This document shows positions 41,001 to 43,563 of a DNA stretch of 64,000 bases, in pieces; position 1 is the first letter of the stretch, and every line of letters starts with the position of its first letter. This DNA comes from Parvibaculaceae bacterium Mf 1.05b.01 (lineage in GTDB: Bacteria; Pseudomonadota; Alphaproteobacteria; Parvibaculales; Parvibaculaceae): NCBI GenBank assembly GCA_000509225.1, contig BAOK01000001.1:2136245-2200244 (forward strand), given 5' to 3'. The position numbers and the translations under genes were made by a program. Below the pieces are notes generated by a model. The model did not search any database and was not told the origin of the DNA. It worked only from the letters and a program-made list of their open reading frames with translations.

Positions 41001-41486
41001 ATGTCTATATCTTTGGCAACAACCGACCTGAGCGATGCCCATGCGGACAATATTGCTCATGTCGATCCGATCTTCTTCGACTATGGCGGTGAAACCTCCT
41101 TTCACGGTCCCATCACCACGCTCAAAGTGTTTGAAGACAATGCACTTGTCCGTTCCGCTGTCGAAGGTCCGGGCGAGGGTCGTGTGCTTGTGGTCGATGG
41201 TGGCGGTTCTATGCGTTGTGCCCTCTTTGGTGGCAACCTTGCTCAGCTTGCCGCTCAAAATGGATGGGCAGGTGTTTTGATCTTTGGCTGTGTCCGTGAC
41301 AGAGATGAGCTTGAGGCTGAGAAGGTTGGTATCAAGGCCATTGGTCACCATCCTCGCAAAAGCATCAAAAAGGGTCTCGGGGATATGGATCTCCCCGTCA
41401 CTTTTGCCGGTGTTGCCTTCACTCCTGGCGCCTGGCTGTATGCCGACCGGGACGGCGTGATTGTCTCACAAATCCCGCTGACCTAA
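41001..41486 (+). CDS. RraA-like protein (HMG aldolase/RNase E regulator family)
   Basis: 161 residues. RraA-fold features: TTDLSDAHADN at the start, GGGSMRCALFGGNLA, and GWAGVLIFGCVRDRDEL, where G-x-VRD holds the residues that bind metal and pyruvate in 4-hydroxy-4-methyl-2-oxoglutarate aldolases. The size and GCVRD match the group annotated as RraA, which includes both E. coli RraA (RNase E inhibitor) and small aldolases, so either role is open. GGGGG lies before the ATG at 41001. The final YADRDGVIVS is the usual C-terminal strand. Confidence 0.85.
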   Translation: MSISLATTDLSDAHADNIAHVDPIFFDYGGETSFHGPITTLKVFEDNALVRSAVEGPGEGRVLVVDGGGSMRCALFGGNLAQLAAQNGWAGVLIFGCVRDRDELEAEKVGIKAIGHHPRKSIKKGLGDMDLPVTFAGVAFTPGAWLYADRDGVIVSQIPLT

Positions 41487-41530
41487 CCCATAGCTGCTCC
41501 TCCCAATTTTCTTGCATTTTCTTCTTGCGA

Positions 41531-41552
41531 TTCATTATCACTTTCATTATCA
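41531..41552. promoter_or_regulatory. Tandem TTCATTATCA repeats (Fur-box-like) in a promoter
   Basis: TTCATTATCA occurs at 41531 and 41543, twelve bases apart. On the minus strand this reads GATAAT, six bases, GATAAT, close to the array of hexamers in a Fur box. The first copy lies between a TTGCGA (41525) and a TATCAA (41548) that are 17 bases apart, a possible promoter of the next gene. Confidence 0.35.
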
Positions 41553-41586
41553 AGATGGAGCGACATGACCTCAAGGAGCCATACAG

Positions 41587-42087
41587 ATGAAAGTGCTGGA
41601 TTTCTCTCCCCGACCGGACGGCAGGCAAAAGACGCCGGCGCAGTACCAGCCTGGCACAGACCTTTCAACACTGAGCTTTGCGGAGCAATTTGTGGTTTGG
41701 GCGACCCGAGCGTCCCGCATGGGGGCTGAGAGTGGATGTGGCCGGGTCAGGCTCGAAGCAGCATTTGCAGCCATCGACGCCCCGGAATCTCTCCCTCGAT
41801 TTCTCGATTTTCTAACGGACCTTGAGGCGCAATTCGGGCGACCGCTTGGGTCCCCATGTTTCAAACGACAGTCCCTCCAGACTGACGAAGCCCGTATTCT
41901 CACCCTGGTCGATCAATTTCAAACGATGGCGATGGGAGAAGGACCGGCACCCTCAAACCTTTCAGATGCCGCGCTCCAGTCGGGACAACATCTGGCCCTC
42001 GCTCTTAGTTCAGCAGGTGTGCAAATGCAGCCGGTGTTCCATGTTCACCAACATACCTGGACGAGAGGCATGCCCATTCTTCACTAG
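41587..42087 (+). CDS. Hypothetical protein
   Basis: 166 residues that I do not recognise. It is predicted soluble and mixed helical, with LSFAEQFVVWATRASRMGAE and LEAAFAAIDAPESLPRFLDF as clear helices, and a His-rich end (VFHVHQHTWTRGMPILH) that could bind metal or be a flexible tail. AAGGAG is eight bases before the ATG. It is monocistronic, preceded by the Fur-box-like repeats and followed by a hairpin overlapping its stop. An iron-related role would fit the repeats but is speculative. Confidence 0.62.
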   Translation: MKVLDFSPRPDGRQKTPAQYQPGTDLSTLSFAEQFVVWATRASRMGAESGCGRVRLEAAFAAIDAPESLPRFLDFLTDLEAQFGRPLGSPCFKRQSLQTDEARILTLVDQFQTMAMGEGPAPSNLSDAALQSGQHLALALSSAGVQMQPVFHVHQHTWTRGMPILH

Positions 42088-42176
42088 AGCCATACCAGTT
42101 TTGTACATCTCAAAATCGGGCTCTAGTCACTTTTTATCGCGTTTTCGGACGGATAACCGGACCCACGTTCGTCCTA
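42084..42176. repeat. Degenerate copy of an alphaproteobacterial intergenic element, with hairpin
   Basis: CTAGAGCC (42084) and GGCTCTAG (42119) form an 8-bp stem around a 27-base loop, followed by TCACTTTTT, a plausible terminator for the gene that ends inside it. The sequence after it (CGCGTTTTCGGACGGATAACCGG and on) resembles the GCGTTTTC-ACCGGTTCCCACTTTT element scattered in many alphaproteobacterial genomes. GCGTTTTC (42138) is mirrored by GAAAACGC at 42210. Confidence 0.5.
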
Positions 42177-42229
42177 ACCTCAGACCGGTGGCGGCGTTGT
42201 CCTCACCCTGAAAACGCTTAGACCTATTG

Positions 42230-42337
42230 CGGGGAGGTGGTCCCCCGTATGGCTCCTGTTCGTTCGCAGGCCTATAGGAGCCACCAAGCGCGTGCCCTGG
42301 TTCGACCCTCCTCCTCGAGTCAATGGCACGCGCTTTT
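42230..42337 (+). ncRNA. Candidate small RNA with anti-Shine-Dalgarno loop
   Basis: Three stem-loops stand in a row with no gene: CGGGG/CCCCG (42230-42247), TGGCTCCT/AGGAGCCA (42250-42283), and a perfect 11-bp stem AAGCGCGTGCC/GGCACGCGCTT (42286-42335) ending in TTTT, a Rho-independent end. The loop of the third stem displays CCCTCCTCCTC (42306-42316), complementary to Shine-Dalgarno sequences. Small RNAs with CCUCC-bearing loops are known in Rhodobacter (CcsR) and rhizobia. No convincing promoter was seen, so the 5' end is a guess. Confidence 0.42.
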
Positions 42338-42342
42338 AGTTT

Positions 42343-43563
42343 CTAAACCGCGTTGGCTTTTGCAATGGCGCCCAACCAATGGGCACTCGGTTTCACCGTC
42401 CGTGTCTGTGTGATGCGGTCAACGGCGATCAGACCGAAGGTTGGCTTGTAGCCCAACATCCATTCGAAATTATCCAGCATGGACCAGTAACAATAGCCAC
42501 GGACATCAATACCGTCGGCGATGCAGTTCTGAACACCTTTAAGTGCCCTTTCCACATAAGCGCGGCGCCTGCTGTCATCTTCAGTCCCAATGCCGCTTTC
42601 TGTCACAATGGTCGGCAGACCGGTATAATCAGCCGTGTAGCGAATGGTGGCTTCAAGCGCTTCTGGATAAAACTCATAGCCCATCTGTGTTTTCTCAACA
42701 TCATCTGACACTTTGAGCTTACCCTCTGGACCATAGATCGACCGGGAATAGGTCTGCACGCCCACAAAGTCGTCACCCTTGGTGATGTCGAGGAATGCAT
42801 CAATACACCGGGTCCGGGCTGCGTCACGCAATGCTTCCCCTCCCTCAATCGCCTGCTCATCCTGTATGGCAAGTGTGACGCCGACAGGGGTTTCCGGCGC
42901 TCTTGCGCGGATTGCCTCCACCGTGAGGCGGTGACCTTTTTTCATTCCTTCTGCAGCACCTTCAATGTCGCCAATGAAGAAGGAGGAAAAGTCGTCAGAC
43001 CCGCACCGCTTTTGTGCCGCCTCAAGGAACGGCGCCAGGCGCGCCTGATCGCCCAGCATTCCGTCGTGAAAGAACCGCATGGGAATATTGATTTCATTAA
43101 TGGTGCAGACCTGTCCCCAATAGTCTCCCAGCACGTCCGCCATAATGCCTGCATAGTTTGCGAAATGAGCTGGCCCGTCTTCTGAGGCAAAACCGCCTTC
43201 GCGCGCGAACCAGAGGGGTGATGTAAAATGGTGAAGCGTCACAATGGGGGTGAGGCCCTGCTCTCTCACAAACGCTGTCATGCGCCGATAATGCTCAAGA
43301 GCCGCGTTCGAAATCTCGCCTTTTTCAGGTTCCACCCGCGCCCACTCAACAGAAAAGCGATAGGCATTGAACCCGAGTTCTTTCAGCAGTCGCACATCCT
43401 GTTCATAGAGATGGAACTGATCACACGCATCTCCCGAAGGCTCTTTGAACATTGTTGGCTCGGTGTGCTCCATCAACCAGAAGTCGCTGGAGGTGTTGTT
43501 GCCTTCAACCTGATGCGCCGCGGTTGCGGTTCCCCAGATGAAGCCTTCAGGAAACTTGGTCAT
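42343..43563 (-). CDS. Glycoside hydrolase family 1 beta-glucosidase
   Basis: 406 residues, a (beta/alpha)8 barrel cleaving beta-linked glucosides or related sugars. The start FPEGFIWGTATAAHQVEGN is the GH1 N-terminal signature. The acid/base Glu157 is in CTINEINI (usual TFNEP), and the nucleophile Glu322 is in VTESGIGT (usual TENG). DNFEWMLGYKPTFGLIAVD near the end binds the sugar. At about 400 residues it is shorter than most GH1 enzymes (430-480). No signal peptide, so it acts on imported disaccharides. It is followed 24 bases upstream by nitronate monooxygenase on the same strand. Confidence 0.88.
   Translation of the reverse strand: MTKFPEGFIWGTATAAHQVEGNNTSSDFWLMEHTEPTMFKEPSGDACDQFHLYEQDVRLLKELGFNAYRFSVEWARVEPEKGEISNAALEHYRRMTAFVREQGLTPIVTLHHFTSPLWFAREGGFASEDGPAHFANYAGIMADVLGDYWGQVCTINEINIPMRFFHDGMLGDQARLAPFLEAAQKRCGSDDFSSFFIGDIEGAAEGMKKGHRLTVEAIRARAPETPVGVTLAIQDEQAIEGGEALRDAARTRCIDAFLDITKGDDFVGVQTYSRSIYGPEGKLKVSDDVEKTQMGYEFYPEALEATIRYTADYTGLPTIVTESGIGTEDDSRRRAYVERALKGVQNCIADGIDVRGYCYWSMLDNFEWMLGYKPTFGLIAVDRITQTRTVKPSAHWLGAIAKANAV

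Follow-up and report, generated by a model that had tools for sequence, protein, structure and literature searches.

A conserved three-hairpin RNA behind a gene with a Fur-box-like motif, possibly a Shine-Dalgarno-masking 3' UTR, in one genus of Parvibaculaceae

Three stem-loops behind a gene of unassigned family

In the 64,000-nucleotide stretch of DNA analyzed here (the window), a plus-strand gene at 41587-42087 encodes a protein of 166 amino acids that belongs to no assigned family. Three stem-loops, identified from the sequence and by folding, lie side by side downstream of it on the same strand (42228-42342), and we refer to them as the unit and to the upstream gene as the carrier gene, whose mRNA presumably holds the unit in its 3' UTR. 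On the minus strand, a gene for a family 1 glycosyl hydrolase ends at 42343. An earlier note had proposed three stem-loops in a row at 42230-42337, and sequence, fold and shuffling bear this out: the minimum free energy of a 141-nt segment was -57.1 kcal/mol vs. -43.6 ± 3.7 kcal/mol for 200 dinucleotide shuffles (z = -3.67). For the unit folded in six homologues, z ranged from -4.2 to -6.1, and none of 200 shuffles was equally low in any of them.

Hairpin 1 (42228-42249) has the stem GCGGGG-AGGUGGUC-CCCCGU at 42229-42248, with AGGUGGUC as its loop, to which the consensus adds one closing pair; its core GCGGGGAGGUGGUCCCCCG is invariant in all six homologues. Hairpin 2 (42250-42283) consists of eight perfect pairs, TGGCTCCT/AGGAGCCA, which the fold extends to 10, and carries AGGAG in its 3' arm; both its stem and its loop are rebuilt in G006, the most distant homologue. 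Hairpin 3 (42286-42335) is built of an 11-bp outer stem, a bulge, an 8-bp inner stem and a 9-nt loop. The 11 outer pairs, AAGCGCGTGCC/GGCACGCGCTT, are perfect and enclose 28 nt, including one bulged C. Within these 28 nt, positions 42298-42305 pair with 42315-42322 and narrow the loop to CCCUCCUCC (42306-42314), an anti-Shine-Dalgarno (anti-SD) loop in which 8 of 9 positions, among them the core CUCCUCC, are invariant in 6/6 homologues. The earlier description of the last hairpin as a perfect 11-bp terminator with a U-run stands, with the correction that the 28 nt enclosed by the outer arms do not form a single open loop; the inner stem leaves 9 nt and holds the anti-SD motif tightly.

The outer stem of hairpin 3 runs into the U-rich tail TTTTAGTTT (42334-42342, the first two T being part of the stem), so that a G+C-rich stem of 11 bp is followed by a U-run in the form of an intrinsic terminator. 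The same tail is found in four of the five closest genomes, with TTTTACTTT in the remaining one and CTACTTTTT in G006. Because the stem of hairpin 3 has no T-run after it on the minus strand, the predicted terminator is read as one for plus-strand transcription. An automated terminator scan did not report hairpin 3 because it allows loops of 3-8 nt and the loop here has 9.

Occurrence and constraint among relatives

When 98 related genomes were searched at the DNA level, there were five strong matches, the window included (E = 1.9e-71 to 1.7e-34), all from the window's genus (g1), and a sixth, weak one in G006 (E = 0.01); the best E-value among the other 35 genomes with a match at E ≤ 1 was 0.036. 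A covariance model built from the six homologues located the unit in 6 of 40 genomes of the order, one copy each and all in g1, where the six matches are given by construction and the informative part is the 34 misses. With this model G006 scored E = 3.2e-16. In a seventh g1 genome, G005, the sequence behind the carrier gene homologue is mostly N, and the unit is present in 6/6 readable genomes of the genus. A pattern scan of the named genomes returned three records, each already among the six unit-bearing genomes. The unit was unmatched in phage and plasmid collections at E ≤ 1e-5, and the exact hairpin 1 was not found in viral contigs. None of the Rfam 15 covariance models matched it at the gathering score, and at E ≤ 10 the region 42050-42420 gave just two minus-strand snoRNA matches (E = 0.7-0.95), both outside the unit. 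The sole Rfam match in the window at the gathering score is a ZMP/ZTP riboswitch (RF01750, 18212-18346, plus strand, 52.9 bits).

In pairwise comparisons of the five closest genomes (ten pairs), identity is 84-97% over the 107 nt of the unit, against 27-75% at fourfold sites of the carrier gene. Between these genomes and G006 the unit is 70-75% identical. The pair of the window and G003 alone is not discriminating, since a repeat-bearing stretch (131/144 identical, see below) is nearly as conserved there as the unit (101/107).

The conservation of the stems in relatives, on which the earlier note had staked its proposal, was found in the six genomes: nine of 38 base pairs, counted over all six homologues, show two-sided compensatory changes with pairing kept, a result seen in 0 of 500 shuffles, with the reservation that there are only six sequences and these are related, that the structure was derived from them and the test is biased towards it, and that many of the two-sided changes stem from G006 alone. 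Structures slid along the alignment gave one or two two-sided pairs. The two-sided changes include the top pair of the inner stem of hairpin 3 and its outer stem, whose pairs are kept in 6/6 genomes and at whose base G006 has CG/GC in place of AU. Conservation within the unit is highest in hairpin 1; all eight loop positions and nearly the whole stem are invariant in the six genomes, as are 20 of the 21 columns 2-22. By alignment, the conserved sequence elements are the core of hairpin 1 and the CUCCUCC loop, and not hairpin 2, because the latter is rebuilt in G006. Judged on these comparisons, the three hairpins are a real, selected and genus-specific structured RNA. What they support of the earlier proposal is a conserved structured plus-strand RNA with a predicted end at ~42337 and an exposed anti-SD loop, whose CUCCUCC is the same in 6/6 genomes.

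The carrier gene and its Fur-box-like motif

The unit lies behind a homologue of the carrier gene in each of the six genomes. The distance from the stop codon to hairpin 1 is 6 nt in G001, G002 and G004, 42 nt in G006, 141 nt in the window and 144 nt in G003, which places the unit in 3' UTR position directly in the first three genomes and at somewhat greater distance in the fourth. In G006 a spermidine synthase gene, and not the glycosyl hydrolase gene, lies downstream. As the downstream gene differs, the unit is linked to the upstream one. Gene and unit are presumably co-transcribed, and the unit is probably not a free-standing sRNA, as had been supposed, but the 3' tail of the upstream gene.

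The greater distance in the window and in G003 is due to a dispersed repeat of ~135 nt that splits gene and unit at the stop codon (42085-42220, plus strand, ends approximate, delimited by alignment with the empty sites of G001, G002 and G004). It is absent from these three genomes by alignment and from G006 by distance. The repeat starts with a hairpin (42083-42127), three nucleotides after which comes TTTTT (42131-42135) in a terminator-like arrangement, and ends in ...CTGAAAACGC; it has complementary ends, GCGTTTTC...GAAAACGC, around an internal hairpin. Copies of its 3' end occur elsewhere in the window genome (G000) and in the genomes of relatives: with up to 2 mismatches allowed, G000 has 13 sites for a 16-mer from this end (1 for the control), of which some may be due to chance and five are the same variant, CTTATCCTGAAAACGC. 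The element resembles a MITE or a palindromic intergenic element, and its insertion here may have duplicated TAGA. Its hairpin could weaken read-through from the gene into the unit in the window and G003.

Homologues of the carrier protein were found in 28 of 61 genomes, distributed over three genera of the family. The window's member had no Pfam match above the cut-off and no NCBIfam match. An AlphaFold2 model shows five helices (pLDDT 79.5), and no fold in the PDB matched it at E ≤ 0.001. The protein alignment comprises 25 of the 28 homologues, leaving out L062 (wrongly framed), L077 (contig end) and L057 (Ns). These helical proteins of ~170 amino acids make up an uncharacterized family, perhaps iron-linked, whose genes are preceded by a Fur-box-like motif in three genera. 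The covariance model found no copy of the unit in the g2 and g5 genomes that have a carrier gene homologue, so the gene does not need the unit; other stable folds lie behind some of the homologues in other genera. On the simplest view, an older gene would have acquired the RNA in a single genus.

Upstream of the carrier gene, a putative Fur-box-like operator, TTGCGATTCATTATCACTT (41525-41543, plus strand), overlaps a candidate promoter, TTGCGA-N17-TATCAA (41525-41553), whose hexamers were assigned by eye and agree with the consensus at 8/12 positions, the threshold of our promoter scan being 9/12. Within TTGCGATTCATTATCACTT and its flank falls a block, 60-41 nt ahead of the gene, that is 94% identical. 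The carrier homologues of all three genera are preceded by a motif, TTGCRANTNATTMTCANTT. Of 26 homologues, 22 have it with at most one mismatch, 36-51 nt ahead of the assumed start, three with three mismatches and one with four; these counts cover 26 of the 28 homologues, leaving out L062 (wrongly framed) and L077 (locus truncated at a contig end). Among 570 control segments taken from these loci, none contained it at ≤3 mismatches; since the motif was written post hoc from these sequences, the comparison speaks for conservation and not for the identity of the binder. Fur is the proposed binder of this predicted operator. The best 19-mer in the window's upstream region agrees at 13/19 positions with the classical Fur box; among 5000 random segments of 130 bp from the window, 18 reach 13/19 and 157 reach 12. 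Three FUR-family proteins and one Hfq are encoded in the window genome. At two genes of Caulobacter, Fur sites are described as overlapping the -35 and -10 elements (PMC3751524), which is the arrangement proposed for the carrier gene.

In favor of a Fur-family site, the motif at ≤2 mismatches also precedes rubrerythrin genes (G000, G003 and G015), a TonB receptor plug gene (G022) and, in G015, a PNPOx/DUF2470 gene and two genes for solute-binding proteins; in G000 it lies between an ApbE gene and a gene without a Pfam match. Other loci, next to an MFS transporter gene or a DUF2061 gene, have no evident iron gene, and the Pfam scan of neighbours covered ORFs at 10 of 24 motif loci. There are four matches at this threshold in G000 and five in G003, vs. 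two each for the reversed motif, and 15 vs. 0 in two g5 genomes. At ≤1 mismatch the motif is unique to the carrier gene in G000. The case for it as a genome-wide Fur site in the window's genus is thin.

Some of these loci are of interest in their own right. In the window genome, a rubrerythrin gene immediately follows a FUR-family gene, and the interval between the two holds a Fur-like motif (L118 and L097, G000:C1:70649-71586). The motif precedes rubrerythrin in G003 as well and, farther off, in G015. In G003 a second Fur-like motif with two mismatches (L098, G003:C1:97093) is located ~2 kb from the first and adjoins an MFS transporter gene.

Possible function of the unit

The CUCCUCC loop is predicted to pair with a generic SD sequence at -8.4 to -10.6 kcal/mol across three loop variants. 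CCUCC would fit almost any strong SD, which leaves specificity unaccounted for. Pairing within the unit was considered as well. The AGGAG arm of hairpin 2, suggested earlier as a switch that turns the loop on and off, would bind the loop of hairpin 3 at -6.5 kcal/mol if free, but it is locked in a 10-bp stem and its AGGAG is lost in G006, and the suggestion is weak. Hairpin 1 is the more conserved possible partner of that loop. Its predicted loop-to-loop energy is -5.3 kcal/mol in the window, -3.8 in G001 and -4.3 in G006, and would reach -12.4 kcal/mol if its stem opened. Such kissing is unsupported, as 17.4% of shuffled loops equal or beat -5.3 kcal/mol. No internal switch within the unit is demonstrated by these predictions.

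Structure, covariation, constraint, linkage to the gene and the conserved operator-like motif can be read from the sequences; past structure, constraint and linkage, every functional step is our own inference. The reading we favor, with confidence just short of even, is that the unit makes up the 3' UTR of an mRNA under Fur control and that this UTR, intact or after processing, works as an SD-masking sRNA during iron starvation. When iron is scarce, Fur would leave the promoter of the gene at 41587-42087, and carrier gene and 3' UTR would be made as one transcript that stops at hairpin 3. The 3' tail of ~110 nt may then act in trans, either on the mRNA or after release as an sRNA by cleavage near the stop codon. 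The loop of hairpin 3, CCUCCUCC, held open by the inner stem, would pair with the purine-rich SD of target mRNAs, presumably those of iron-related genes, and so block ribosome binding, an iron-sparing action like that of IsrR or FsrA.

It is also conceivable, though rather improbable, that the unit is a 3' end device only, that is, a terminator and exonuclease barrier for the mRNA of 41587-42087 without targets in trans. Its place behind the stop codon and its intrinsic terminator would suit such a device, and carrier homologues in other genera manage without the unit. For a terminator, however, a stem and a U-run suffice; it has no need of eight unchanging loop positions in hairpin 1 or of an invariant CUCCUCC in hairpin 3. 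These loops stay the same while neighbouring fourfold sites drop to 27% identity, and the two-sided changes in the top pair of the inner stem and in the outer stem also point to more than termination. A stand-alone sRNA with its own promoter near 42200, which in the window strain the repeat could supply, appears unlikely. It would explain why the three hairpins still fold in the window and G003, where a repeat with a terminator-like hairpin parts them from the gene, but in three genomes stop codon and hairpin 1 are a mere 6 nt apart. An embedded conserved promoter is not apparent at the end of the gene, as the final two complete 15-codon blocks have third-position identities (0.39 and 0.51) that do not rise above those of the rest of the gene (0.36-0.65). 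A sigma-70 consensus scan of 41450-42420 gave zero plus-strand sites, in a test that also misses the proposed promoter of the carrier gene and has other promoter types outside its scope.

A stem as such would not account for the invariance of hairpin 1, the most conserved part, across six genomes, and hairpin 1 might mimic an SD for the 16S rRNA tail or for sRNAs with anti-SD loops. The RNA would then act as a decoy for ribosomes, or as a sponge, balanced by hairpin 3. With the universal 16S tail GGAUCACCUCC, GGAGGUGGUCC pairs over 11 nt (one G-U), and the predicted duplex has 12 pairs at -23.0 kcal/mol. Against this, the match is a post hoc one: chance alone would give 0.52 such 11-mers in the window, where one was found, and 41 of 100 shuffles contain at least one. 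Much of GGAGGUGGUCC sits in a G-C stem that must open, and a pattern scan for the 16S tail in these genomes gave 0 matches, so that the tail could not be read from them. We therefore regard the decoy as quite doubtful. A separate scan of G000 with the pattern CCTCCTCC (55 forward and 51 reverse matches) tells little, the reversed control being the same word. As for a small coding gene in place of an RNA, starting at GTG 42237 with 58 codons (42237-42413), the frame is open in the window, and a comparison of the window with four relatives puts 18 of 39 differences on third positions (9 on first, 12 on second). The coding reading was rejected because the 21 variable columns, each counted once, split 7/7/7 over the codon positions, though the pairwise tally is 18/39; besides, an ATG at 42249 exists in only 2/6 genomes and the changes track base pairing. 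We consider it scarcely credible.

The SD-masking 3' UTR that we favor would belong functionally with the Fur-regulated, iron-sparing sRNAs, a class that comprises RyhB, PrrF, FsrA and IsrR. IsrR of Staphylococcus is described as Fur-repressed, with three stem-loops, an intrinsic terminator and three C-rich regions that pair over the SD, and FsrA of Bacillus as carrying a C-rich motif that pairs over the SD (PMC9410917). The unit resembles IsrR in its three stem-loops with an intrinsic terminator and in having a C-rich region, and a Fur-box-like motif lies upstream of its gene, as a Fur-type operator does in the two Firmicutes systems. In contrast to these, the unit sits at the 3' end of a protein gene and has one C-rich loop, its iron link and targets are putative, and it has no Rfam-detectable relation to either. 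It would thus work like IsrR or FsrA without being homologous to them.

Among alphaproteobacterial RNAs, the cuckoo family, with SmelA075, SmelA099 and CcsR1-4, shares with hairpin 3 a hairpin that has a CCUCCUCC-type loop. In SmelA075 and SmelA099 of Rhizobiales each hairpin bears CCUCCUCCC, and the anti-SD loops are described as pairing with the SD (PMC3927594), and CcsR RNAs are described as co-transcribed with an upstream small protein gene, as in ccaF1-CcsR (PMC10253847). When the family is defined by these two descriptions, the unit falls outside it. The CCUCCUCCC loop, present in each of several hairpins in cuckoo, CcsR and SmelA075, occurs in hairpin 3 only, the loop AGGUGGUC of hairpin 1 and that of hairpin 2 being different, and the adjoining gene, a DUF1127 gene at CcsR/CIN1 loci, is here an unrelated one without a Pfam match above the cut-off. 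The CcsR-type kinship suggested in the earlier note was dropped on these grounds and for want of an Rfam match at the gathering score, which equally tells against its other suggestion, the alpha-r sRNAs. By any test made, SmelA075/SmelA099, ccaF1-CcsR, IsrR and FsrA are not homologues of the unit.

Similar in size to the unit is RusT of Caulobacter crescentus, an sRNA of 118 nt with a terminator hairpin that is linked to iron starvation (PMC11005374). Like the unit it is alphaproteobacterial, but it is described as free-standing between lolA and xth and under NtrYX control, its authors having found no Fur site (PMC11005374), whereas the unit is the tail of a gene with a Fur-box-like motif. UdsC of Rhodobacter is described as arising from the 3' UTR of a hypothetical-protein mRNA; together with PcrX it represents the class of 3' UTR-derived sRNAs proposed for the unit, and the accessible descriptions of the two mention neither an iron link nor an anti-SD loop. 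The titles and abstract openings consulted on this point showed no Fur-linked UTR-derived sRNA in alphaproteobacteria.

A bolder version, in which a Fur-driven 3' UTR carries both an SD mimic in hairpin 1 and an anti-SD mimic in hairpin 3, we regard as a long shot. If true, one transcript would engage the anti-SD of the ribosome and mask the SDs of other mRNAs during iron stress, and the RNA would be a two-sided regulator of translation and an sRNA in an alphaproteobacterial Fur regulon. A conserved anti-SD RNA attached to a gene with a Fur-box-like motif makes it possible to test, concretely and cheaply, for a Fur-dependent RNA arm comparable to RyhB or IsrR in some Alphaproteobacteria, and for the origin of such arms inside 3' UTRs, the carrier gene occurring in three genera of the family and the RNA in one only.
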